DNA of 41,914 nucleotides from a virus, in IMG/VR virus record IMGVR_UViG_3300046514_000169, positions 1 to 41,914 of that record. One strand, given 5' to 3'. Positions 2,095 through 35,379 of the stretch are shown here, piece by piece. The notes beneath the pieces were generated by a model. The model saw nothing but the letters and a program-made list of their open reading frames with translations, made no database searches and was not told the DNA's origin. Within the stretch, counting starts at the first letter, position 1, and each line of letters opens with the position of its first letter. The translations under genes and the position numbers were made by a program.

Positions 2095-3896
2095 ACACTC
2101 ACACTTTCGTCAGCCAACGTGTGCCAGTGCTTCGCTTCAGCGAACATCGGCACCCCACACATCTTGGTTGCGAGCTCGCCCATTCGGCGCGTGATCAGCG
2201 CGCCATTGCCAACGATGTCGCCCGCATCAAGTTCAATCACAATTGAGTCGTGCACTTGCAAGAGCAAGTCATACCCACATTCATCAAGGTCAATCATGAT
2301 GTGCTTGATGACTTGCGCAATCGACCCTTGCACCACGGCGTTGAACGCCTTATGCATCTCTTCGAACGGGCGAAAATACCGCCTACGCCCATCAATCAAT
2401 TCGACATAACCACGTCGGCGCGCGAAGTCTTCGGTGCGATGATTGATGCGCGGGAATTCGGGAAACAACTTGCGCCATTCGGTCACAATTTCTTGCGCCT
2501 CACGCTCACTGAGTATCACGCCAGTCATCTTTTCCACGTCGCCGCGAAACGTATGCGCCCCGACGCCGTAAATCAATGCGAAGTTCGCACGCTTGCCAAT
2601 CTGTCGCCATTTGTGTGAATCGTCATCAAACAATTGCCGCGCGGTTTCACTATGCAAATCGCGGCCCTCTTCGAACATCTCAAGCCATGACGTGCAACCC
2701 GCAATCTTCGCGCCCACGCGCGCTTCGGCTTGTCCTAAATCGAATTCCCACAATTGTTGCCCTTCGCTTGCACGAAACAACGCGCGCGGCAACACCACGC
2801 CCTCAAGGCGCTCAAGCTTGTGGTCTTGGGGTATGGCTTGCAAATTGACACGATGCGAACTGAAGCGCATCGAAATCGTGCCCATTTGTTTGTAGTCCGT
2901 TCGGAGTCGCCCGTCAACACCCGTCGCCTTGGCGTAGCCGTCGTAATACACGCTCACGGTTCGCTTCAACTTTTGCAATGTCGCGTATTCATCAGCCCAC
3001 GGCGCGCCTTGCGCCTGAAAACTTCTGATGCAACATTCACTCAATGATGCTTTCTTGCCCGCCGTCATGCAATGCGGTATGCACCGACACGTGTTGATAA
3101 ACCACGCCCGTGTGGCGGCTTCGGTCAACTTGAAAGGCAATTCGTGTGACACCTTCGCTATTTGTGCTTTCGCCTTGGCGCCTTCCAATCGCGAACGTGT
3201 CGCGTCATAACCAATGCCGCGATATGCCATGCGGGTGAGCGCCTTGCACACTTTCAATTCGGTTTCGACTTGTTCGCTCAAATACTCACTTGAGCCTTCA
3301 AGCAAATCAAATTGCCGCTCGGCCAGTCGCAACGTCAATTCAGCATCTTGGCGTGCATACTCACTGACTTCAGCCCACGGCAAAAAGTCATAGCGCCCGC
3401 CGTTGGTTTCCAACTGCGCTTCGATAGCTCGCGCCGACGCACTTTCATTCGCACCCCATATGCGCGACGCCGTTGATTTCAACGCCGCTGATTCTGTCGG
3501 CTCAAGAACCCATTGCGTCAACATCGTGTCGTGCACTAATGCGTCAGTCAAGTCAATGCCAAACCCGTATTCACGATGACCCGCGTGAAACATTTGCAAA
3601 TCGAAATAGGCGTTATGCATGATCAACCGTTGTTGATTGAGCCATTGCATTAGCACGTTCCATTCAAATTGCGTTCTATTCGGGTCAGCGTCAATCAGCG
3701 CCAACAAGTCGTCTTGGCCCGTCTTCGCATTGCGCCCGTGATCGAACGCCCACGCGTCAGATTTCAAATTGTTGGTGTGAACGTCGCGCCATGCCGCCGA
3801 AACCACGCTGATGCGCGCCCCGTCATCGACATACAGCCCGCTGGTCTCACTGTCAACGGCCACGTTGCGTGACCCTCGTGGAAGTCGCAAACTCAT
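2091..3896 (-). CDS. family A DNA polymerase with 3'-5' exonuclease
   Basis: The 601-residue replicative polymerase is similar in size to T7-like phage enzymes. The exonuclease has D15/E17 (VAVDSET), HNAYFD near 94-99 and YARQD near 180-184. Polymerase motif A is FDLGQAEARV (D386), motif B is RQIGKRANFALIYG (R431, K435, F439, Y443) and motif C is QVHDS (D550). The usual Glu after the motif C Asp is Ser. A cysteine cluster (CRCIPHC then CC) lies around 270-289, ahead of the palm. ATG 3896 has a GGGTGGG stretch upstream; an in-frame TTG at 3932 is the alternative. No 5'-3' exonuclease domain is present. It sits next to the primase across an origin-like region. Confidence 0.95.
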   Translation of the reverse strand: MSLRLPRGSRNVAVDSETSGLYVDDGARISVVSAAWRDVHTNNLKSDAWAFDHGRNAKTGQDDLLALIDADPNRTQFEWNVLMQWLNQQRLIMHNAYFDLQMFHAGHREYGFGIDLTDALVHDTMLTQWVLEPTESAALKSTASRIWGANESASARAIEAQLETNGGRYDFLPWAEVSEYARQDAELTLRLAERQFDLLEGSSEYLSEQVETELKVCKALTRMAYRGIGYDATRSRLEGAKAKAQIAKVSHELPFKLTEAATRAWFINTCRCIPHCMTAGKKASLSECCIRSFQAQGAPWADEYATLQKLKRTVSVYYDGYAKATGVDGRLRTDYKQMGTISMRFSSHRVNLQAIPQDHKLERLEGVVLPRALFRASEGQQLWEFDLGQAEARVGAKIAGCTSWLEMFEEGRDLHSETARQLFDDDSHKWRQIGKRANFALIYGVGAHTFRGDVEKMTGVILSEREAQEIVTEWRKLFPEFPRINHRTEDFARRRGYVELIDGRRRYFRPFEEMHKAFNAVVQGSIAQVIKHIMIDLDECGYDLLLQVHDSIVIELDAGDIVGNGALITRRMGELATKMCGVPMFAEAKHWHTLADESVSV

Positions 3897-3940
3897 CTCG
3901 CCCACCCTATCTGACGCTTGCCACTGTGACAAACACCTAC

Positions 3941-7020: not shown

Positions 7021-7449
7021 CTAGGCGCTTTCGTCGCCCGGTGCCACGCCATCAGCGTCGGCATACGGCAACACTTCGCGAATGGTGTTTGCCAACTGGC
7101 CCGCGCGTGCACCCTTTTGAATGGTGCGCGTGCCAATGCTCAAGATGGCATAACTGCCCACCAGTGTGTCAGTGTCGGTGTCAGCGCTCACGCCGAACGC
7201 ATCAAACATCGCCTTGAAAAACGGTCGTGACTTTTCGCCCAGACTCGTGTTATTCCAAAACTTGCGACTGGCGTAAGGGTGACCTTCAGGGATTGTAAAT
7301 TCCCACGCCCAATACGGCCCCTCGTCGCCGTCTTTGACTTCAACGCCCGTGAGCTGTGCCACATATAAAGCATCGGGCACGGGTGTAAAGCCTTGCGCCG
7401 CTTCGGTCTCATCGACCGCCGCTGCGGTTTCGCTCGGTAACTTTGGCAT
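7021..7449 (-). CDS. putative ssDNA-binding / DUF669-like recombination accessory protein
   Basis: The 142-residue protein has an acidic N-terminus, a central beta-rich region (YVAQLTGVEVKDGDEGPYW, then FTIPEGHPYASRKFWNNTSL) and an acidic C-terminal tail, as in OB-fold ssDNA-binding proteins. DUF669-type proteins commonly sit beside Sak4-like ATPases in phages, as here. The family call is by sequence character and context rather than a diagnostic motif. A GAAAGCGAG stretch precedes ATG 7449. A structured gap separates it from the primase. Confidence 0.55.
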   Translation of the reverse strand: MPKLPSETAAAVDETEAAQGFTPVPDALYVAQLTGVEVKDGDEGPYWAWEFTIPEGHPYASRKFWNNTSLGEKSRPFFKAMFDAFGVSADTDTDTLVGSYAILSIGTRTIQKGARAGQLANTIREVLPYADADGVAPGDESA

Positions 7450-7961: not shown

Positions 7962-8860
7962 GACGCCATCGCTTTCGCGCCCTTGAGCGGCGGGGGCGCG
8001 GTCGTTGTGGTCTTGGGCGGGGCCAATGCGGCGTCGAGCTCTTCAGCCTTGGTCGAATCGATGCCCATGCGCGCGAATTCGCGTTGCATGTCAGCGTCAT
8101 CATCAAGGGTCAGGTCACCATTGACGTAGGCAATGATGCGGTCAGCGCTCGGGTTGATGAGTCGCGGGGGCAACATGTGGAAACGGTCACCACCTTCATA
8201 CAAATCAACGGCGCGAAACGTGCCCCAATAGTTCGGCTCGGCTTGGCCGCTGACGCTTTCGCACGTGGTGTGACAGACAATGTCAACGTAGCCGAGCAAG
8301 TCACTCGACAACTTCGGCGTCATGTCCGGGCGGTAACTGATTAGCCCAGTGGCCTTGTCGGTATCGCGTTGCTCAAGGGCCACGAAAATGACGTGCGCCT
8401 TGGCGTCGCGAAAGCCGCGAAACAACTTGCGCATTTGCGTGGTGTTGTCGCCGTAGTCATCGACTTGCATTGAATACTTGTCGCGGTTCTTGCCCGCCGC
8501 GTTCGCACGATCACGATTCGCGTTGGCAATCTCTTCAAGCAATTTCTTGTGCAACTCAGTGGCCGAGTCAACCACCAACGCATCGGGTGGCGAAGTCAGG
8601 CATTCGAACATCAGCGCTTCAATGGCCGCGTCGGTAATTTCGTCGTGCACGTCGATCTTGTCAACGGGCACGCCGAAGTAGTTGATGAGTGGCGGCGCCT
8701 TCAATCCACTTTCACAATCGACATATACAACGCGCTCAACACTGTCGAGCTTCGCCACCTGTGCCGCCGCTGTGGTCTTGCCACTCTTCGGCTTGCCGTA
8801 CATCAGGATTTTGGCAAACGTCTTTCGGTCGGCCAAACTAGTTCGCGTTACTTCGGACAT
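7958..8860 (-). CDS. Sak4-like RecA-fold ATPase (AAA_24 family)
   Basis: The 300-residue single-strand annealing/recombination ATPase has Walker A YGKPKSGKTT (21-30), a conserved VVYVDCESGL strand and a Walker B-like strand DALVVDSATEL. A RecA-core glutamine/arginine region FVALEQRD follows. The C-terminus is a Pro/Thr-rich tail. Phage Sak4 proteins act with an ssDNA-binding partner, matching the genes just downstream. It overlaps the next gene by ATGA. Upstream lies a 54-nt leader with a GAAAGCGAG Shine-Dalgarno-like stretch. Confidence 0.85.
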   Translation of the reverse strand: MSEVTRTSLADRKTFAKILMYGKPKSGKTTAAAQVAKLDSVERVVYVDCESGLKAPPLINYFGVPVDKIDVHDEITDAAIEALMFECLTSPPDALVVDSATELHKKLLEEIANANRDRANAAGKNRDKYSMQVDDYGDNTTQMRKLFRGFRDAKAHVIFVALEQRDTDKATGLISYRPDMTPKLSSDLLGYVDIVCHTTCESVSGQAEPNYWGTFRAVDLYEGGDRFHMLPPRLINPSADRIIAYVNGDLTLDDDADMQREFARMGIDSTKAEELDAALAPPKTTTTAPPPLKGAKAMAS

Positions 8861-10820: not shown

Positions 10821-11752
10821 TAGTGGCGCTCAAAATTCTGTTCGAACCCGTGAAGTTTTAGCGAACGGCGCATGTCGTACCCCTTGCGCCCGCCAAGGCA
10901 ATCTTCGGTGAATGGGCATCGCCACCTACAGGTGTCGCTATTCGGGTTGCGCTCGGCGTCAGTACCCGGTGCGATTGAATCGTCAAGTGGCCCGCGAGAC
11001 CATGCCCGTTTCGCCGTGGCGTATGCCTCAAGGGCAATAATGGCGAGCTCTTCATCAGTGCGATACAACATGATGCGCTTGAATCTTTCATCAAGCGATT
11101 GCGGCTTTGACTTGTTGCGCTGTGTGCGCAAGCAATTGTAAATACACCCGACAACGGGCATACCCAATTGCTTGAGACCCCACGTGTAAAGCCCAAACTG
11201 GTCATCAAGCTCAAGCATCTTGTCACTGGGAATGTCTTTGTTGAATTTGTGGTCATCAATCCACAGTTGACCCGTGGGCTTGTAGCGCACGATCAAGTCA
11301 AGCTTGACCTTCAACTTGAAACGTGAGCGTGAGCCTTCGCGCGTTGACGCCGGTAGCCAAAATTCATTGGCGTATTCGACGGCGACAATTTCCCAATCGG
11401 GGTCATTGCCATAGCGCTCAACGTAGCCCGCGTAAATCCACGCAATCAAGTCTTGCTCTTCGGTTTGATCACTGCGCGCATCGCCAAGACTCAAGAGCGA
11501 ATTGATGCGCGCGTCAGTAGTCCACATGCCAAGCCCGTCATGATCAAAAATGACTTGCGGATATTCACCGCCAGTCTCTTGAATCACTTTGTAGTGTTGC
11601 TCAAGAACCTGATGACCCAGTGAGCCACGCGATAGCGCCGTGCCCTCTTCAGCGGGCTTTTGCCAACGTTCTTTGTAAGCCAGTTGATGCTTGAGCGGGC
11701 ATTGCCTGAAGGTGTCAATTTCTGACCACGAAACGGTAATGGTTGATGCCAT
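10820..11752 (-). CDS. RecB/Cas4-like PD-(D/E)XK nuclease with Fe-S cysteines
   Basis: The 310-residue nuclease has the signature of Cas4/AddB-type exonucleases: a single N-terminal cysteine (C18 in FRQCPLKHQ) and three C-terminal cysteines (C275, C279, C285 in CRWRCPFTEDC) that would bind a 4Fe-4S cluster. Around mid-protein are KLDLIVRY and LWIDDHKFNK (the D and D-x-K of PD-(D/E)XK) and the QxxxY-like DQFGLYTWGL. It would resect DNA for the Sak4 annealing system. AAGAGG precedes the ATG by about 6 nt. A strong promoter lies at 11804-11832. No cas1 or cas2 is nearby. Confidence 0.85.
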   Translation of the reverse strand: MASTITVSWSEIDTFRQCPLKHQLAYKERWQKPAEEGTALSRGSLGHQVLEQHYKVIQETGGEYPQVIFDHDGLGMWTTDARINSLLSLGDARSDQTEEQDLIAWIYAGYVERYGNDPDWEIVAVEYANEFWLPASTREGSRSRFKLKVKLDLIVRYKPTGQLWIDDHKFNKDIPSDKMLELDDQFGLYTWGLKQLGMPVVGCIYNCLRTQRNKSKPQSLDERFKRIMLYRTDEELAIIALEAYATAKRAWSRGPLDDSIAPGTDAERNPNSDTCRWRCPFTEDCLGGRKGYDMRRSLKLHGFEQNFERH

Positions 11753-11803
11753 GTGTGACCTCTTTTGCTTGGTGGAAGTGGCTAGTAATAACTAAGGCTC
11801 ACG

Positions 11804-11837
11804 ACCATACTTTGCGCTTGCCGCGCTGTCAAGTCTT
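11804..11837 (-). promoter_or_regulatory. sigma70-type promoter, copy 1 of a duplicated element
   Basis: On the minus strand TTGACA (11827-11832) and TATGGT (11804-11809) are 17 nt apart. The 34-bp block matches the block at 32797-32830 at 29 positions. The start site would lie near 11797, leaving a 45-nt leader for the nuclease. GTGAGCCTTAGTTA just after the -10 resembles half of the box in the promoter islands. Confidence 0.75.
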
Positions 11838-14043: not shown

Positions 14044-14384
14044 CGCACACCGCCGAACTGCGCAACGTTCGCGTGAAGCGCGCATAGGCGCACGGTGCCG
14101 CGCCCGTTATCAATGGTGGTGTTGACGGGCTCGGTGCACTTGTCGCACGTCGGCGTCGCCCACTTGTTGACCATGTCTTGTGCCGCTGCCTTGGCGTCGC
14201 GCTGATTGGGGTAGCAACCCACGCCTTCATAGCTCGGCTCACTACCGCCCATGCCCTCAGTGAACATATACAGTTCAAAGCGCGCCTTGTTGTCTTTGCA
14301 TGTATCGATGCGCCATTTGCCATCAGCACTGTCATAGTGCCCCGCGCTCACGCGTTCCCACTCAATAGTGTCGGTTGACTTCAT
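14040..14384 (-). CDS. hypothetical protein with C-terminal cysteine pairs, 114 aa
   Basis: The N-terminal half is beta-rich (WERVSAGHYDSADGKWRI), followed by a helix with QRDAKAAAQDMVNKW, then CDKCTEP and RLCALH, a likely zinc site. The first 13 bases of its coding sequence (ATGAAGTCAACCG) match two leaderless cassette genes, and the 5' region belongs to a 40-bp repeat shared with the 33993 gene. It is the first gene downstream of cassette A's minus-strand unit. Confidence 0.6.
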   Translation of the reverse strand: MKSTDTIEWERVSAGHYDSADGKWRIDTCKDNKARFELYMFTEGMGGSEPSYEGVGCYPNQRDAKAAAQDMVNKWATPTCDKCTEPVNTTIDNGRGTVRLCALHANVAQFGGVR

Positions 14385-14415
14385 GATGATTCACTCGCTT
14401 TCTTGGTTGGTTGTT
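14376..14415. repeat. 40-bp cassette boundary repeat, copy A
   Basis: This block spans the start codon and leader of the 114-residue gene and matches 33985-34024 with two or three differences. In both places it separates a variable small gene (58 aa here, 70 aa there) from the next minus-strand gene. Confidence 0.75.
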
Positions 14416-14422
14416 TTTATCT

Positions 14423-14599
14423 TTAGTATCCCCACACCTTCAGGCAACGGTGACAAGTAACGCCGCGCCTCGGGTCATTGATGATCGGGTTGGGTGTCGA
14501 TGACCCGCAAGCGCTTACGCCGTTGATCATGTGGTGTGTGAGCTGGCTTTTGCCGCCCCTGATGGTGCCGTTGTTGTTGGTGTCTTGGGTTGTGGTCAT
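14423..14599 (-). CDS. cassette A minus-strand small protein, 58 aa
   Basis: This 58-codon gene starts at ATG 14599, exactly 7 nt from the TATACT of the left-going island promoter, so its mRNA should be leaderless. The N-terminus is Thr/Asn-rich (MTTTQDTNNNGTIRGGKSQ), and the C-terminus carries Cys and CHRC spaced about 20 residues apart, a possible zinc site. Function unknown. Confidence 0.65.
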   Translation of the reverse strand: MTTTQDTNNNGTIRGGKSQLTHHMINGVSACGSSTPNPIINDPRRGVTCHRCLKVWGY

Positions 14600-14765
14600 G
14601 CAGATAAGTATAGCGGGTAGCCTTACCTAACACACGTCAAAATGGCTATTTTTCAAGAATTTTTCAAATTTCTTGAAAACCCTTGCAATTACTGGGGATT
14701 GGGAGATTGAAAAAATATGTAGAAATGGCGTGTGATAGGTAAGGCTACTCGCTATACTTATTCCC
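14600..14765. promoter_or_regulatory. bidirectional leaderless promoter island A
   Basis: The left-going -10 is TATACT at 14607-14612 (minus) and the right-going -10 is TATACT at 14753-14758; each lies 7 nt from its ATG. Box elements lie at 14612-14630 (minus strand TTAGGTAAGGCTACCCGCT) and 14735-14753. The core between them (about 14637-14725) is nearly identical to island C. It contains 10-bp inverted arms TTTTCAAGAA/TTCTTGAAAA and the tract TACTGGGGATTGGG. The box matches the DtxR/IdeR consensus at 15 of 19 positions. Confidence 0.85.
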
Positions 14766-15239
14766 ATGAAGTCAACCGAACAGGAGACAACCGCAATGAC
14801 TGAGACAGTGAATCCAAAATGGCAAATGATCTTTGACCGCGACGCCAAACGAACAATCAAGACTAGGGGCGAAATTTTCCAGTCTGAAATTGACGATGAG
14901 CGCATGACCGCGCGGCCCGAGCTCTTCGACATTTTCTTAGTTGCCGTCAATGCGCAATGGCAAGAAGAGTCACCATCAGCCGCGAAGCGCGGGCGTAATC
15001 CCAAGTTTCCATATGTGCCCGTTATCAATTACATCGTGCGCGCCACTGGCGACAAGCGAACACAAAATCCCGCCAAGGGTCTCGCCTTCGCCACCCGCGA
15101 AGAGGCTGTGGCAAAGGCGCAAAGTTACATCATCGGCACGCGCGAGCAAACCGCTTTCAAGATGACACTTCACCGCTACCGCGCATTGCGCGAACAGTAT
15201 GGTTTTGCCAGCGAGCTGAAAGATGTGGTGGCGGTATGA
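14766..15239 (+). CDS. cassette A plus-strand protein, 157 aa
   Basis: This is one of the few plus-strand genes. ATG 14766 is 7 nt from TATACT, so the transcript should be leaderless; a second ATG 10 codons later is the alternative. The protein is basic and helical, with WQMIFDRDAKRTIKTRG near the N-terminus and many Arg/Lys, suggesting nucleic-acid or protein binding. No family is recognised. It is coupled by ATGA to the following membrane peptide. Being opposite to the main operons and under a shared promoter, it behaves like a moron gene. Confidence 0.65.
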   Translation: MKSTEQETTAMTETVNPKWQMIFDRDAKRTIKTRGEIFQSEIDDERMTARPELFDIFLVAVNAQWQEESPSAAKRGRNPKFPYVPVINYIVRATGDKRTQNPAKGLAFATREEAVAKAQSYIIGTREQTAFKMTLHRYRALREQYGFASELKDVVAV

Positions 15240-15406
15240 ATCTCATTTGGGTTTTCATTTCAACGGTTGTGTTGTGCGTCAGCGCTATCGCACTCTTCTG
15301 TCTTGCCGTTGCCATTATCGCAACAATCATGAGCTGGTGGGCACGCCACCAAGCATGGCGCGACATCGACACGACTGACCGCTACGGCGACATCAACCGT
15401 CGATAA
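15236..15406 (+). CDS. cassette A single-pass membrane peptide, 56 aa
   Basis: The 56-codon gene overlaps the previous stop by ATGA. Residues 4-33 form one long hydrophobic segment, followed by a Trp/His/Arg belt (SWWARHQAWRD) and a charged tail, so the C-terminus should be cytoplasmic. Its 3' end overlaps the converging helicase gene by 14 bp. A role in the host membrane, such as superinfection exclusion, is possible but unproven. Confidence 0.6.
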   Translation: MNLIWVFISTVVLCVSAIALFCLAVAIIATIMSWWARHQAWRDIDTTDRYGDINRR

Positions 15407-16853
15407 CCGAGCGAAATTCGCGAGCCGTTAGCGCGTTGACTTGTTGGGCACTCTTGCCCGCCACCCGTGCGCGCATACCCGTGTCAACGGTGCCACGTGT
15501 CCATAGGTGGAAGATTGACACTGGCGCGGTCTTACCATGAATCATGGCGCGCTTGATAACTTGGTCATTTTTCCACGGCACCCAAGAATGCTCAACAAAG
15601 ACTTCAGTGCGGGCGGCACTCAAGTCTTTACCAAGGGCCAACGTGTCAATCGTGCCAACTAACACATCAACGTCGCCGCGCTGAAACGCCGCCTTGGCGT
15701 CATCGCGGGCGTCGATAGTGACGCCGCCGTGGTGCTCAACAACCCGCACACCCAGTTTGACGGCCAGTGCGGCCACTGCCGTCACCGTTGACCGAAAGTG
15801 ACAAAACACCAACGTGGGCGAACGTGGCGACTCAAGCAAGAGATTCGACAACACGGCGAACTTGCCCGAGCCTGATGCACTGCCATCAGTGAGGCTTTCA
15901 AGCCCTGTGGCGCACTTCGCAAGCTTTACGTGCAAGCCGCCGTCACTCCACGCACTCACTTCATCGCCGGTCGTGTCAATCCACGTTATATAATCGCGTT
16001 TCAGCTCGCGATACGCCTTCGCCTGTGACGGCGTCATATCGACTTCAATGACAGTCTCAGTGAATGGCACGCCAAGGTCAACGTCACGCTGAAGCATGTG
16101 GCCGTTGAAACCGTCAAGCCCGTTGCCTTGCCAGAAGTCGGGCCATGTCAAGCCGTGGTGTAAGCCATCGTTGCCGTTCGTGAACACAATTTGTTGACCG
16201 CCCCACGGCGGTTGCCATAGTTGAAACCATGTCTCAAGCCATCGTTGCTTATTGGTGAATCTCTTGTCACTGGGGAAAAGCAATCGAAGAGGCATCAACA
16301 ATTCGTGCGCCCAATTCGGTATCGGTGTGCCCGTCGCCAAATACAATCGCTCGCTCTTGAGCGTCTTGATAGCGCCCGTCCAATTCGCTTTCGGGTTGAC
16401 CACCATGTGCGCTTCATCAATAATGACCGTGCCCCACGCGCGTCGATAATCGGGCTTGAGTATGGGCACGGTCTTTCGCATGTGACCGTGCGCATTCGGC
16501 GCGCGCTGTGCAATCGACGCGAAGCCGGTAAAGGTCATATCAAGGTCAGGGCGCCACAATGCATGTTGGGTTCGCCACCCTTCGCGCAAGTCACTGGGGG
16601 CGATTACCAACGTCGGCCCGTCAGCGGCAAGCAAGAGCTGTGCGGTCTTGCCCGAGCGCGGCGAATCGGCAAGCAATCCCCGTTTGACGCGCTCAAGCCA
16701 CTCAATGCCGTCAACTTGGTGCGGCCTCAAGGGCGGCGCACTGGGCGGGCTACACGTCACGATGGTGGTGCCACACCCCACGTGTGACCATGACGTTAGC
16801 CCTACCCAATGCTTCAGCCGCGTGGTGTCGAAAAGATATTTTCGCGCAACCAC
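15393..16853 (-). CDS. SNF2-type (SF2) helicase
   Basis: The 486-residue protein has the two RecA-like domains of SNF2 ATPases. A Q-motif-like LRPHQ is at 42-46, motif I DSPRSGKT ends at residue 70, motif II IIDEAH is at 146-149 and motif III is LATGTPIPN. In domain 2 there is LVFCHFRS, HHGG, DVLVGTIDTLALGKDLS and a diverged motif VI (DQVIKRAMIHGKT). Phage SNF2 proteins are common and may move DNA or remodel protein-DNA complexes. The listed GTG start overlaps the HTH gene by 40 bp; a later start near 16781 is possible. It converges on cassette A. Confidence 0.85.
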   Translation of the reverse strand: MVARKYLFDTTRLKHWVGLTSWSHVGCGTTIVTCSPPSAPPLRPHQVDGIEWLERVKRGLLADSPRSGKTAQLLLAADGPTLVIAPSDLREGWRTQHALWRPDLDMTFTGFASIAQRAPNAHGHMRKTVPILKPDYRRAWGTVIIDEAHMVVNPKANWTGAIKTLKSERLYLATGTPIPNWAHELLMPLRLLFPSDKRFTNKQRWLETWFQLWQPPWGGQQIVFTNGNDGLHHGLTWPDFWQGNGLDGFNGHMLQRDVDLGVPFTETVIEVDMTPSQAKAYRELKRDYITWIDTTGDEVSAWSDGGLHVKLAKCATGLESLTDGSASGSGKFAVLSNLLLESPRSPTLVFCHFRSTVTAVAALAVKLGVRVVEHHGGVTIDARDDAKAAFQRGDVDVLVGTIDTLALGKDLSAARTEVFVEHSWVPWKNDQVIKRAMIHGKTAPVSIFHLWTRGTVDTGMRARVAGKSAQQVNALTAREFRSVIDG

Positions 16854-17074
16854 GCGCCGATGACTCGACGGCGCCCTTCCAACGACTGAGCCTTGCCCAT
16901 CTTCACATCAAGGTCACGGCGCTGTGCGTCGGTCAATTCATTCGAAAACGCATTGATGATGCGAAACAACATGGCCGTTGACGGTACGCGCTCACCCGAG
17001 CGATAGCGCGATGCCGTTGTGTGATCACAACCAACACGCCGTGCAAATTCGACGTTGGTGATTCGCTTTGCCAC
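16814..17074 (-). CDS. XRE-family HTH regulator
   Basis: The 86-residue protein has a Cro/CI-type helix-turn-helix: ITNVEFARRVGCDHTTASRYRSGERVPS, with the recognition helix around HTTASRYR, and then a dimer-like helical part. It is the only clear repressor-type regulator in the window. The start is GTG 17074. It could bind the 17-bp dyads upstream of the polymerase and capsid genes; this is inferred only from the lack of another candidate. No lysogeny genes accompany it. Confidence 0.75.
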   Translation of the reverse strand: MAKRITNVEFARRVGCDHTTASRYRSGERVPSTAMLFRIINAFSNELTDAQRRDLDVKMGKAQSLEGRRRVIGAWLRENIFSTPRG

Positions 17075-17500: not shown

Positions 17501-18331
17501 TTATACCGCTTGCAAGTTCACGATGGTTGTAGGGCTGGTATAGGCAGGTGAACCGGGAAACGGGAACGTTGACGGCAAACCTGTCGGTTGCCCCGTCAAA
17601 TGAATGCCCGTCGCCGTTTGTGTTGGTGAGCCACTTGATGCGGGGATATTGCCGCCTAATATTGATGACCCCGGCCCATCGTCACAGTTCACGGCGGGCG
17701 TGCCGCCCGAACTATGAAACATTGCTGATAGCCAATATAGTCCCGGCGTCAACGTAACCGATAATGCTACTGATAGCGGCCCTGACACTAAAGTTGTGTT
17801 TGTCACTTGCGCTAATCGCGCATTTGGAATTAGTGAACCGTCATCGTCATAAACTCCAAGATCAACTTTTGACCCGCCTCCTCCCGCGCCGCCGACATTT
17901 ATTCCAATGTGGTCAAATGATGTTGTTTCACCGACAAAAAATGGGTAGGCGTCAAAGGTGCCGTTTGGCACAGCCGTAGCTATTGGATAAAAATATGTCA
18001 CGGGATACCACAACCCACTAAGAAATTGCCAACCCGGCCCTGATCCAAACAACAATCCGCTACCGCCGTCATAATCATTGACGGCACCGAGCACAATGAG
18101 TCGCGTATCAACATGTAAGACTTCAACGACATCGTCAACAAGCACCGAATATGATGACAACATTTCAGCGCTCAACACGGTGCTATCGCCGTCGAGCGTC
18201 AACGAACAAATGCCATTCGAGCCGACGTTGGTAATGACGCCGCGCGACAATGATAAGTGTTGGTCTTTTGAACCAACTGAGGGCGGCGCTTGTCGAATCA
18301 ATCGCGCTAAGTCGTGTGTGGGGTCACTCAT
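17501..18331 (-). CDS. minor tail / putative receptor-binding protein, 276 aa
   Basis: The ATG at 18331 overlaps the upstream stop by ATGA. The N-terminal quarter (LARLIRQAPPSVG onward, then GVITNVGSNGICSLTLDGD and LVDDVVEVLHV) resembles the OB-like base of actinophage minor tail proteins. The rest is Gly/Ser/Thr-rich beta sequence including NVGGAGGGGSKVDLGVYDDD, like a jelly-roll receptor-binding head. It is last in the tail operon, where adhesins are often found. The receptor is unknown. Confidence 0.55.
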   Translation of the reverse strand: MSDPTHDLARLIRQAPPSVGSKDQHLSLSRGVITNVGSNGICSLTLDGDSTVLSAEMLSSYSVLVDDVVEVLHVDTRLIVLGAVNDYDGGSGLLFGSGPGWQFLSGLWYPVTYFYPIATAVPNGTFDAYPFFVGETTSFDHIGINVGGAGGGGSKVDLGVYDDDGSLIPNARLAQVTNTTLVSGPLSVALSVTLTPGLYWLSAMFHSSGGTPAVNCDDGPGSSILGGNIPASSGSPTQTATGIHLTGQPTGLPSTFPFPGSPAYTSPTTIVNLQAV

Positions 18332-27270: not shown

Positions 27271-27558
27271 CTACTTGTCTCCCATCAAGTCAGCGAGCAT
27301 CGCGGCACGCTCTTCATCGGTCAAGGTTGACCCCGCAAACGGGTTACTAGCGTCAAAGCCGCGTGACTTTTGGCTACGGGTCTTGCCGCTACGGTGAGCG
27401 GCGCACAGCGTGTCGCCATCGCGGCGCAATCTGTCACATTGTTGGTCATTGATAATGCCTTTTTCGTGGCCCCAGTGTTGGCAACGAAATTCATCAAGCG
27501 GCAAAAGGCCAAAACGGTCATAACGGGGGTCTTGCTTGCGGTCTTCGCGTGTGGTCAT
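27271..27558 (-). CDS. cassette B minus-strand protein, 95 aa
   Basis: ATG 27558 is 7 nt from the left-going TATACT, so the mRNA should be leaderless; a longer in-frame start (27594) would include the promoter and was rejected. The protein is charged (MTTREDRKQDPRYDRFG) with RCQHWGH and LCAAHRSG, a possible Cys/His metal site, and a C-terminal acidic helix (DEERAAMLADLMGDK). The order of Cys and His recalls HNH-like zinc knuckles, but no catalytic motif is seen. Confidence 0.65.
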   Translation of the reverse strand: MTTREDRKQDPRYDRFGLLPLDEFRCQHWGHEKGIINDQQCDRLRRDGDTLCAAHRSGKTRSQKSRGFDASNPFAGSTLTDEERAAMLADLMGDK

Positions 27559-27722
27559 GGGAATAAGTATAACGGGTAGCCTTACCAATTGCAAACCAAT
27601 TCAGCATTTTTTCAAATTTCTTGAAAACCCTTGCAATTACTGGGGATTGGGGGATTGAAAAATTTAGTCGAAATTCGACTTTTGACGTGTGTTAGGTAAG
27701 GCTACCCGCTATACTTATTGGC
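27559..27722. promoter_or_regulatory. bidirectional leaderless promoter island B
   Basis: TATACT elements are at 27566-27571 (minus) and 27710-27715 (plus), each 7 nt from ATG. The box on the plus strand, 27692-27710, is exactly TTAGGTAAGGCTACCCGCT; the minus copy spans 27571-27589. The core (27606-27665) matches islands A and C but lacks the left arm of their 10-bp inverted repeat. A separate 7-bp dyad AGTCGAA/TTCGACT (27666-27680) is unique to this island. Confidence 0.85.
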
Positions 27723-28139
27723 ATGACCACAACCAAGCGATTTCAATGCAAGGCGTGTAAGCGCCGCTTCGCCACTCGCGATGGCGCGCAAGCTCACATC
27801 ATGTCAAAGCACGTGCACAACGGCCAAACCTTTCGCTGGTTGTCACGCAATGATGACGGCGCCATTGTCGCCCACGTCGATAGCAATGCTGACGGTCAAT
27901 ACGAAAATGACCCCGATGAGCGCGCCGCGCAAAAGTGGTATGTGTTTTGCGATGAGCACAATATGTGCATTGGCGTACCGCGCGCCAACCAAGCTGAATA
28001 TATGGCCGATCATCGCGAAAGTTTTTGTGAAGTTTGCACAGGTGCGTCACCGTATTGCGTGACGTGCGCCATTGCCCTCGCGCCGTGGAATGTTGAAGAG
28101 CACCTTGCACACGGCACCGTGTTGAATGCGGGCGCCTGA
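27723..28139 (+). CDS. cassette B C2H2 zinc-finger protein, 138 aa
   Basis: The N-terminus has a classical C2H2 finger, C9-x2-C12-x12-H25-x4-H30, in FQCKACKRRFATRDGAQAH. This is the eukaryote-like spacing, not the shorter Ros/MucR form. Later cysteine groups (VFCDEHNMC, FCEVCTG, YCVTC) suggest a second zinc site. ATG 27723 is leaderless, 7 nt from TATACT, and the codons start ATGACCACAACC as in other cassette genes. It could bind DNA or protein. It is followed by the next gene with a TGATG overlap. Confidence 0.7.
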   Translation: MTTTKRFQCKACKRRFATRDGAQAHIMSKHVHNGQTFRWLSRNDDGAIVAHVDSNADGQYENDPDERAAQKWYVFCDEHNMCIGVPRANQAEYMADHRESFCEVCTGASPYCVTCAIALAPWNVEEHLAHGTVLNAGA

Positions 28140-28471
28140 TGACCAATCGCAAATACTTTGAAGTCACGATTGAAGCGTGGTGCGAAACCAATGACGGCAT
28201 GAATGTCGCATGGGTGAGTGCTCAAGGCATTGACCAAAACGGCCAACCCGCCAAAGTGAAAATGAGTAGAAAACTCGCCGCGCTTGACTTGCACATTGGC
28301 GACACCGTATGCGGCATGGCGCGCGTCACTGACGCCGTCAAAGCTGACAAGGGTTTGCTTGTCGATTGCGTCAACGTCAATATGACCGCTGGCATTGAGC
28401 GCGGCCAATCATTCTTTGACAATGTGCACGGCAAATGGCTCGCTACAAATATGTGTTGGGTGCGGCCATAG
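28139..28471 (+). CDS. cassette B plus-strand protein, 110 aa
   Basis: The second gene of the cassette overlaps the first as TGATG. It is beta-rich: YFEVTIEAWCETNDGMNVAW, ALDLHIGDTVCGMARVTDAV, and a C-terminal FDNVHGKWLATNMCW. No family is recognised. Its end abuts the strong terminator, so the plus-strand transcript should stop here before meeting the capsid gene. Confidence 0.65.
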   Translation: MTNRKYFEVTIEAWCETNDGMNVAWVSAQGIDQNGQPAKVKMSRKLAALDLHIGDTVCGMARVTDAVKADKGLLVDCVNVNMTAGIERGQSFFDNVHGKWLATNMCWVRP

Positions 28472-28512
28472 CAAAAGACCCGCCCAACCAAACGGCTAGG
28501 CGGGTCTTTTGC
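28471..28512. terminator. strong bidirectional terminator
   Basis: Perfect 14-bp arms (GCAAAAGACCCGCC, 28471-28484; complement 28499-28512) enclose a 14-nt loop, and each arm ends in a run of four T on its own strand. It separates the right-going cassette B from the left-going capsid gene, so it can stop both convergent transcripts. Confidence 0.85.
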
Positions 28513-28524
28513 TTGCGCGTCAGA

Positions 28525-32789: not shown

Positions 32790-33276
32790 GCGAGCCACCA
32801 TACTTTGACCTTGTCGCGGCGTCAAGTCTTATGGCGAATTGCGCGGGCGTCAAATCAGGTGCCGTCCAGTAACCATAGACACAACGCGTGCCGTCGCGCG
32901 ATGAGTCATGGGTATCATGAATGACGCCGTCAATGACGGCAACGAGGTGGCGCGAGCATCGGGCGATAAGTCGCCCGTTCGGCAATTCATCGCCACGCAA
33001 GTGAACGCGGCAACCCGAGCCGATTGACATTGTCGGTGTCCACACGAAACCGAGTTGATCAATGATTGGCGCGAACACGCGCCTAGGTGCACCCCGGCTA
33101 GCGGTGCGGTCACCAAAGTCAACGTCATGGCGAAGGCCATGTGTGACCGCGTCATATATCGTGCGGTAATCAACGCCTGTCGCAATCGCAATAGCTCGCG
33201 TGACACAATCACCAGCGGCGCCTGTGAAATTCGCCAACATACGCCCGCCGTCGTCAATGACCAATGCGACGGTCAC
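32782..33276 (-). CDS. papain/C39-like peptidase-fold protein, 164 aa
   Basis: The protein has GDCVTRAIAIATGVDYRTIYDAV, the cysteine-containing helix of a widespread phage family, and HLVAVIDGVIHDTHDS near residue 110, which supplies His and Asp in the order expected for papain-like enzymes (Cys, His, Asp). Its start GTG 33276 overlaps the upstream stop by GTGA. The last codons contain the duplicated promoter. Activity as a protease or deconjugase is inferred; the relatives I recall are uncharacterised. Confidence 0.6.
   Translation of the reverse strand: MTVALVIDDGGRMLANFTGAAGDCVTRAIAIATGVDYRTIYDAVTHGLRHDVDFGDRTASRGAPRRVFAPIIDQLGFVWTPTMSIGSGCRVHLRGDELPNGRLIARCSRHLVAVIDGVIHDTHDSSRDGTRCVYGYWTAPDLTPAQFAIRLDAATRSKYGGSRD
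32797..32830 (-). promoter_or_regulatory. sigma70-type promoter, copy 2, within the peptidase-like gene
   Basis: TTGACG (32820-32825) and TATGGT (32797-32802) are 17 nt apart, 29 of 34 bases identical to the copy at 11804-11837. It sits in the end of the upstream coding sequence and directs an apparently leaderless GTG gene 7 nt downstream. Confidence 0.7.
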
Positions 33277-33993: not shown

Positions 33994-34024
33994 GATGATT
34001 CACCCGCTTTCTTGGTTAGTTGTT
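33985..34024. repeat. 40-bp cassette boundary repeat, copy C
   Basis: This matches 14376-14415 with two or three differences. It overlaps the start of the 129-residue gene and the end of the 70-residue cassette C gene. Confidence 0.75.
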
Positions 34025-34212
34025 GTTGTGTGCTTCGGGAGTCGCCCGCATGTTTTCGTGTCAATGTTTGCACCGTACATGCCATTCAAAAATTTCTTGG
34101 CGCCACACACGGGGCAATAGCCAAAGCCTGTGACTCGCTCATGCTCATTGACTATCGACTTGACCAATGCGCCCGTACCGGCGCACAAGCTCTTAGTTGC
34201 GGTTGACTTCAT
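34000..34212 (-). CDS. cassette C minus-strand protein, 70 aa
   Basis: ATG 34212 is 7 nt from the left-going TATACT. A longer in-frame start (34437) would place the protein across the promoter island and was rejected. The protein starts MKSTATKSLCAG and contains YCPVCGAKK around residue 33 and CGRLPKH at 55-61, a zinc-ribbon-like pattern. The first bases ATGAAGTCAACCG match the cassette A plus-strand gene. Confidence 0.65.
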   Translation of the reverse strand: MKSTATKSLCAGTGALVKSIVNEHERVTGFGYCPVCGAKKFLNGMYGANIDTKTCGRLPKHTTTTNQESG

Positions 34213-34387
34213 GTAGGTAAGTATAGGGGTGAGCCTTACTTCATGTACGTCAAAATGGCTATTTTTCAAGAATTTTTCAAATTTCTTGAAAACCCTTGCA
34301 ATTACTGGGGATTGGGAGATTGAAAAAATATGTAGAAAAAGGGCGTTTGGCGTGCATGGGATAAGGCTACCCGTTATACTTATTGGC
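34213..34387. promoter_or_regulatory. bidirectional leaderless promoter island C
   Basis: TATACT lies at 34220-34225 (minus) and 34375-34380 (plus), each 7 nt from its ATG. The boxes are at 34225-34243 (minus strand TGAAGTAAGGCTCACCCCT) and 34357-34375. The core from about 34250 to 34340 is nearly identical to island A, including the TTTTCAAGAA/TTCTTGAAAA inverted repeat. Confidence 0.85.
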
Positions 34388-35152
34388 ATGACCACAACCA
34401 CCACACCAAGCAATGCCCATGAAGTTGCCGTTGACACAAAGATTGCCGCCGCTTATTGCATCAAGCACGAAGCTGTCGCAACCGCCGCCAACGCCGCCAA
34501 GATGGTGCAAAGCCTTATCCCGACAAACTTGCTCGCCAAGGTTCGTTTCGAATCCGAGCGCCGCCCCGGTCACATGGCTGACGGCACATACATGAGCGCT
34601 GACGATGTTGTTGCCGCTCTTGCTTCGGGCAAGTTTGAAGTTTCGCTCGCCAAGCGTCACAACGCTGATGACCGCATTGCGCGTTACACCAGTGCCGTTG
34701 CCGCCCGTCAAATTGCCAGCGACAACTACGCCGCCGAAGCCAAGAACTATGGTGGCTGGTCACGGTTCTTTCTTGTTGTCTCATCGGTTGGTGGACACGT
34801 TCACAGTTCAATGGATTGCTCAACATGCAACAACGGCAAAGACTTCACCGACTTCAACTGGTTGCCCGAGCTCAGTGGCTTGACTGAGGCTGACGCCGTT
34901 GCGTCACAAGGCGCGATTCTGTGCACCGTGTGTTACCCGAGTGCGCCGATTCACTTCACCAACGCTGCCGAGCTCGCCGCGCAAGCCAAGGCTGACGCCA
35001 GTTGCAAGGGCTCACTGACCTACAACTACAACCGCGAGACCGCCCGCACCGGCTATGCCTACGGCAACGCCGCCACATGCAACGACTGTGGCGCACGCGT
35101 CACCTTGACCAAGAGCGACAAAATGCGCCGTCACAACAAGGTGGCGTCATGA
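34388..35152 (+). CDS. cassette C plus-strand cysteine protein, 254 aa
   Basis: The start is ATG 34388, 7 nt from TATACT and with the shared ATGACCACAACC. A longer in-frame start from 34229 runs through the promoter and was rejected. The N-terminal half is Ala-rich and helical; the second half has paired cysteines: C144/C147 (SSMDCSTC), C179/C182 (LCTVCYPSAP), and C231/C234 (CNDCG). The middle WLPELSGLTEADAVAS block recalls an actinophage family of unknown function. It is coupled by ATGA to the next gene. Confidence 0.7.
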   Translation: MTTTTTPSNAHEVAVDTKIAAAYCIKHEAVATAANAAKMVQSLIPTNLLAKVRFESERRPGHMADGTYMSADDVVAALASGKFEVSLAKRHNADDRIARYTSAVAARQIASDNYAAEAKNYGGWSRFFLVVSSVGGHVHSSMDCSTCNNGKDFTDFNWLPELSGLTEADAVASQGAILCTVCYPSAPIHFTNAAELAAQAKADASCKGSLTYNYNRETARTGYAYGNAATCNDCGARVTLTKSDKMRRHNKVAS

Positions 35153-35379
35153 AGACCTACGCCAAAATCACCGCTGATGGGCGCACGCGAATTGTGCGCA
35201 TTGACCGCGAAACTGATGCGCTCATTATCGGCATGGTTGTTGACACTGAAGGTCAGCCCGTCGAGCGCGAAACTGAAACCGCGATGGTGCGCGAAACATG
35301 GATGATCGACAAGCGAGACATGACCAAGCGCGTGCCAATGGTCATGAATCTCACCTATGGCACTTTGGAAAACGCCTAG
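35149..35379 (+). CDS. cassette C plus-strand protein, 76 aa
   Basis: The start overlaps the upstream TGA (ATGA). The protein is beta-rich with alternating charged residues (YAKITADGRTRIVRIDRETD, then REDTWMIDKRDM-like segment REtWMIDKRDMTKR). It shares a CTAG quartet with the converging protease gene: TAG on each strand uses the same four bases. No function recognised. Confidence 0.6.
   Translation: MKTYAKITADGRTRIVRIDRETDALIIGMVVDTEGQPVERETETAMVRETWMIDKRDMTKRVPMVMNLTYGTLENA

Follow-up and report, generated by a model that had tools for sequence, protein, structure and literature searches.

The DNA analysed here (the window; 41,914 nt, IMGVR_UViG_3300046514_000169) comes from an uncultured virus and contains three intergenic islands, A, B, and C, each of which extends exactly from one start codon to the divergent start codon opposite (Table 1). 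The window has six plus-strand genes, all located behind the islands as three two-gene operons with a stop/start overlap within each pair. Opposite each operon, across the island, lies a short minus-strand gene. The preliminary description had placed the only plus-strand genes of the window, along with flanking minus-strand genes, next to the islands, and all six were found in this position. Their number exceeds one per island, as a second, overlapping gene is present in each operon.

No relatives of the first plus-strand gene of island A (157 aa) or island B (138 aa) were found in phage records. CxxC pairs occur in four of the six first genes at the islands compared with 9 of 60 other proteins, a difference that is suggestive only. 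Behind the plus-strand operons, a convincing terminator was found only at island B, where a long palindrome probably ends both the operon and the capsid transcript.

Table 1. Coordinates of the islands, their cores and arms, and the genes and features discussed in the text
Feature	Position	Strand	Description
Island A	14600..14765		Predicted divergent promoter module; flanked by the ATGs of 14423-14599 (-) and 14766-15239 (+)
Core of island A	14658..14712		Near-invariant; repeated TTTTTCAA / TTGAAAA half-sites
Island A minus arm	14600..14627	-	
Island A plus arm	14738..14765	+	GGTAAGGCTACTCGCTATACTTAT; TATACT to ATG, 7 nt
Island A first minus gene	14423..14599	-	58 aa; CxxC
Island A first plus gene	14766..15239	+	157 aa
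Island A second plus gene	15236..15406	+	56 aa; hydrophobic segment; ATGA overlap
HTH_3 (Xre-type) protein	16814..17074	-	86 aa; candidate regulator in the window
Island B	27559..27722		Predicted module as in A; differing short palindromic insert in right half
Core of island B	27606..27660		From alignment
Island B minus arm	27559..27586	-	Sole arm with a weak TTGCAA at 17 nt
Island B plus arm	27695..27722	+	
Island B first minus gene	27271..27558	-	95 aa
Island B first plus gene	27723..28139	+	138 aa; weak C2H2 zinc-finger match; CxxC pairs
Island B second plus gene	28139..28471	+	110 aa
Long palindrome	28470..28513		Between B plus operon and capsid gene; probable bidirectional terminator
Island C	34213..34387		Predicted module as in A; left arm is the most diverged
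Core of island C	34271..34325		From alignment
Island C minus arm	34213..34240	-	Degenerate; TAAGGCT-N6-TATACTTA and 7-nt gap kept
Island C plus arm	34360..34387	+	
Island C first minus gene	34000..34212	-	70 aa; CxxC
Island C first plus gene	34388..35152	+	254 aa; phrog_2433 family
Island C second plus gene	35149..35379	+	76 aa; ATGA overlap

A second contig, G002 (L013, L014), matched both ends of the window at 99.99-100% identity and contains 9055 further bases. Because G002 links the two ends, we place the genome at about 51 kb, either circular or permuted, and the window is most of one phage genome. No island was found in the extra 9 kb, where the long non-overlapping ORFs are all on the minus strand. 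This part encodes a large tail-type protein, cell-wall enzymes, and a WhiB-like protein. The WhiB-like protein, together with tblastn matches to phages of actinobacteria, indicates an actinobacterial host, and the source is probably an uncultured tailed phage of actinobacteria. A prophage host search of genome contigs with the portal and capsid proteins gave no match.

Homology and composition of the islands

Alignment and a self-search of the window revealed that the three islands are homologous. In the self-search, A and C matched over 138 nt at 91% identity; they show no difference over approximately 90 nt of core but diverge in the arms. A 55-nt inverted repeat of 96% identity links the left arm of A with the right arm of B. 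Each island is laid out as an AT-rich, near-invariant core (TTTTTCAAATTTCTTGAAAACCCTTGCAATTACTGGGGATTGGGRGATTGAAAAA, hardly variable across the three islands in the alignment) between two inverted, outward-facing arms. The homology reaches codon 4 or 5 of the flanking genes on both sides and then ends. The common core and the paired outward promoters of the preliminary description were thus recovered, the homology by alignment and self-search and the promoters as predictions.

The islands have a GC content of 38-39%, compared with 55.4% ± 4.7% for 165-nt stretches of the window, and rank among its few most AT-rich spots. Given this composition in a 55% GC genome, the half-sites repeated in the core, and the HTH_3 protein encoded in the window, the islands could be silencing or lysogeny operators, at which an Lsr2-like host xenogeneic silencer or a phage repressor would nucleate on the core and boxes and keep the cargo off, with a secondary promoter role. 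We regard this reading as a serious but minority possibility, as no integrase was recognised among the proteins scanned, which makes lysogeny doubtful, and AT-rich divergent promoters are explicable without any silencer. It is compatible with the divergent-promoter explanation rather than exclusive of it.

The conserved AT-rich core, which holds the longest identity where the arms do not, might alternatively mark a structural or replication element (an origin, packaging site, or recombination site) that lies in divergent intergenic regions by chance. This is very improbable, because there are three copies, each between divergent start codons, and because an arm motif with an invariant gap to the ATG would be out of place in an origin. 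A search of Rfam gave no match.

Arm architecture and predicted promoters

The six arms have the consensus TTGrcgTg.....ggTAAGGCTaccCgyTATACTTAt...ATGA...CAacC. At three or fewer mismatches, the arm motif GGTAAGGCTANNCGNTATACTTAT has five matches in the window, and 100 shuffles gave none; the minus arm of island C, with four mismatches, is the sixth arm. All six arms contain TAAGGCT, N6, and TATACTTA, followed by 7 nt from TATACT to the ATG, although this agreement is partly due to descent and does not amount to six independent observations, since the islands are homologous copies. The three bases directly 5' of the ATG vary among the arms, whereas the 7-nt gap is constant. When 67 gene starts were scanned for TANNNT at 6-8 nt upstream of the start codon, both the TATACT -10 and the 7-nt gap were unique to the six island genes.

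A sigma-70 scan of the arms found a -35 missing at 16-18 nt in five of six. The TTGrcg element sits 22 nt upstream of the -10, which is too far for normal sigma-70 contact. With no normally spaced -35 and TTGrcg too distant, the TAAGGCT box in the spacer is likely where a regulator binds or the polymerase makes an unusual contact, and the activity of the arms that lack a -35 must depend on something else. Some other minus-strand starts carry TTGACA-17-TATGGT (e.g., near 11830), and the island promoter class is therefore distinct from these. The sequence TTGAC[A/G]-17-TATGGT occurs in two similar minus-strand stretches (11800-11837 and 32797-32830), which are candidate ordinary promoters of the phage.

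As the -10 lies 7 nt from the ATG, the RNA +1 is expected at the A of the ATG or one base before it, and the mRNAs are predicted to be leaderless. The genes at the islands begin ATG-ACC-ACA-ACC or ATG-AAG-TCA-ACC, and homology running into codons 2-5 is what would be expected if the mRNA begins there. Leaderless translation is enhanced by CA repeats just 3' of the start codon (PMC9031893). Elsewhere in the window, the minus-strand starts at 7449, 7961, 8860, 9357, 14384, and 33993 carry GAAAGCGA or GAAAGCGGG approximately 10-20 nt before the ATG in place of the usual Shine-Dalgarno sequence. An SD-like tetramer was present at only 17 of 67 window starts.

The arm sequence GGTAAGGCTACCC was also considered as a DtxR/IdeR-type box, which would put the islands under a host iron regulator. 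The IdeR consensus is the 19-bp palindrome TWAGGTWAGSCTWACCTWA, with which the left half of GGTAAGGCTACCC agrees; the best arms match at 15 of 19 positions. The right half is poorly matched, however, and several arms reach only 13. Mononucleotide shuffles yield 0.4 matches of the 15/19 quality, and many regulators were open to comparison. As an unrelated site in the window, a chance match, also scores 15, we did not adopt GGTAAGGCTACCC as an iron box and consider iron control most unlikely.

Our preferred explanation, which we hold at a probability of roughly 0.7 on the basis of sequence comparison, is that the islands are divergent leaderless-promoter modules, copied within the phage lineage, that place one small accessory-gene regulon under a common regulator. 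Each module would consist of the shared AT-rich core flanked by two outward promoters. The strong -10 (TATACT), 7 nt from the ATG, would direct transcription to start at or within one base of the start codon, giving leaderless mRNAs whose first codons would be supplied by the module itself. TAAGGCT would replace the normally spaced -35 as the putative site of the common regulator, either a repressor or an activator, and the core, which contains the TTTTTCAA half-sites, may provide another protein-binding site. Within a leftward genome, the regulon would comprise the three rightward two-gene operons and the facing minus-strand gene of each island. The homology, arm architecture, spacing, gene arrangement, and absence from the relatives searched are established directly; from sequence, we infer promoter activity, the leaderless start, the common regulator, and the mode of origin. 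The shared arm architecture agrees with the earlier characterization of the islands as a repeated divergent promoter-like module that serves plus-strand and flanking minus-strand genes and has the look of common regulation.

If the islands work in this way, the phage adds opposite-strand genes to a fixed genome plan under joint control. This control would operate without the phage's ribosome-binding-site signals, with the start codon and first codons travelling with the promoter unit. We suggest more tentatively, and think it rather unlikely, that the TAAGGCT-N6-TATACTTA arm represents a new class of promoter, recognised either by RNA polymerase in a phage-modified form or through a spacer-binding activator, and that the island is a plug-in bidirectional cassette. 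In that case, a neighbouring gene pair would acquire promoter, start codon, and first codons together, and accessory genes would enter the regulon on arrival.

Distribution and origin of the islands

The preliminary description had called the islands a mobile-looking module and proposed a search for the core in related phages. We could not substantiate mobility between phages. In IMG/VR, the core and arm motif are confined to near-identical contigs of the same phage and were found nowhere else, and a looser core pattern gave no match. A blastn search of INPHARED with island A returned nothing but short AT-rich chance matches. The absence of the core outside this genome limits its spread, but it does not refute a role within this phage. 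A looser arm pattern had 18 other matches in IMG/VR, about the number expected from the pattern length; these were chance-like, lacked the extended motif, and were rejected.

The nearest distinct relative, G001 (portal 59% and capsid 65% identical), has no islands. In the slot of island B, it carries a single unrelated plus-strand gene (8181-8828), preceded by an ordinary promoter (TTGACA-17-TAAACT) and a leader and accompanied by a terminator-like palindrome. The B slot therefore holds a plus-strand accessory gene in both lineages, whether or not an island is present. G001 also lacks the genes that surround island C (the C cassette).

A unit of approximately 190 nt with imperfect inverted arms, an AT-rich core, three dispersed copies, and homology that breaks off at codons 4-5 resembles a MITE-like small non-autonomous element. 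Under this reading, the arms would be terminal repeats, and the outward promoters and start codons would be a by-product of insertion. We consider it improbable. The proteins scanned included no recognisable transposase, and inspection of the island edges revealed no target-site duplication. Copies at unlinked sites in other genomes were not found, the element being limited to this phage, and all copies lie exactly between two start codons, unlike those of a random inserter. The islands are no known mobile element.

The mosaic of arms and cores, in which A and C are identical in the core and the left arm of A is near-identical to the right arm of B, is consistent with copying and recombination inside the phage genome. 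A Sak4-like annealing protein and an exonuclease are among the proteins encoded there. The pattern suggests that the islands were generated in this phage lineage by duplication and recombination.

Comparison with known phage promoter families

The ESAS of cluster K phages are dispersed elements that combine inverted repeats with SigA-like promoters (PMC3203893, PMC11373665). The islands resemble them as dispersed intergenic repeats, with inverted repeats, ahead of scattered accessory genes. However, almost all ESAS point in one direction, with a -35 and -10 spaced 17-18 bp apart, and many precede a 13-bp SAS that has the character of a ribosome site, whereas the islands are bidirectional and leaderless-like, lack a -35 in five of six arms, and share no sequence with ESAS. 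In the islands, we did not find a SigA-like -35/-10 pair at 17-18 bp with a 15-17-bp inverted repeat, nor the 13-bp SAS GGGATAGGAGCCC 3-9 bp upstream of the start; the arms have TATACTTATNNN before the ATG. The preliminary description had likened the islands to SAS in concept while noting a different sequence. The difference in sequence was confirmed, and the analogy holds through ESAS and cluster O; it fails for SAS itself, which occupies a ribosome-site position. Because the predicted transcripts are leaderless, the nearest known systems are ESAS and the cluster O promoters rather than SAS.

Two results add weight to the functional comparison. The first concerns the first plus-strand gene of island C (phrog_2433), whose homologues follow an ESAS/SAS in every one of the seven cluster K phages checked (L057, L058, L060-L063, L068), which represent fewer than seven independent events because these phages are mutually related. 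No ESAS/SAS was found at the homologues in Gordonia, Streptomyces, and some other phages examined. The phrog_2433 family may be a core member of the cluster K ESAS/SAS regulon.

Cluster O phages such as Corndog have the divergent leaderless promoters PL1/PR2 and a leaderless PL2 (PMC4351075). As at PL1/PR2, each island has two outward promoter-like sequences in one AT-rich intergenic region, and the predicted +1 coincides with the first base of the start codon, with the -10 ending 7 nt before the ATG in six of six arms. The two systems also share a leftward gene within a structural operon. In contrast to the single, SigA-like divergent site per cluster O genome, the islands are present in three homologous copies, which have a core in common and carry a spacer box unlike that of cluster O, and a SigA-like -35 hexamer at 16-18 nt is missing from five of six arms.

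The second result in favour of the functional comparison comes from a distant actinophage-type relative, G004 (IMGVR_UViG_3300005438_000007, L025; capsid 44% identical), which has a dispersed family of its own, with seven matches to an inverted-repeat operator, TTGTCGCTAGGGGTTGACA, over the -35 (TTGACA), all in one direction. The layout is TTGTCGCTAGGGGTTGACA-17-(-10)-about 7-ATG (e.g., L025:3073-3158, 3850-3920, and 11324-11366), and most of these promoters run leaderless-like into ATG-ACC-ACC-ACC or ATG-AAC-ACC-ACC-ACC. Like the islands, they are repeated and dispersed, with a -10 approximately 7 nt before the ATG and ACC or AAC codons resembling those of the islands. Unlike the islands, they are unidirectional, with an operator over a normal -35, and have no sequence in common with them. 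Cluster A stoperators are also short sites dispersed over the phage genome and are read by one regulator (PMC9283540), but they are asymmetric repressor sites oriented with transcription, whereas the islands are predicted promoters between divergent ATGs.

The island element was not seen in other phages of IMG/VR or INPHARED, and related phages use different dispersed promoters similarly. If the islands do work as proposed, they would, alongside the G004 family and cluster K ESAS, suggest repeated invention of dispersed accessory-gene promoter families among actinophage lineages. The class is already known; the sequence, the bidirectional triplicate form, and the missing -35 are new. Another related contig, L017, contains G+C-rich intergenic repeats (GGAGGGCGCGGAGACCGCG...) at 11608-11659, 14347-14397, and 18140-18213.
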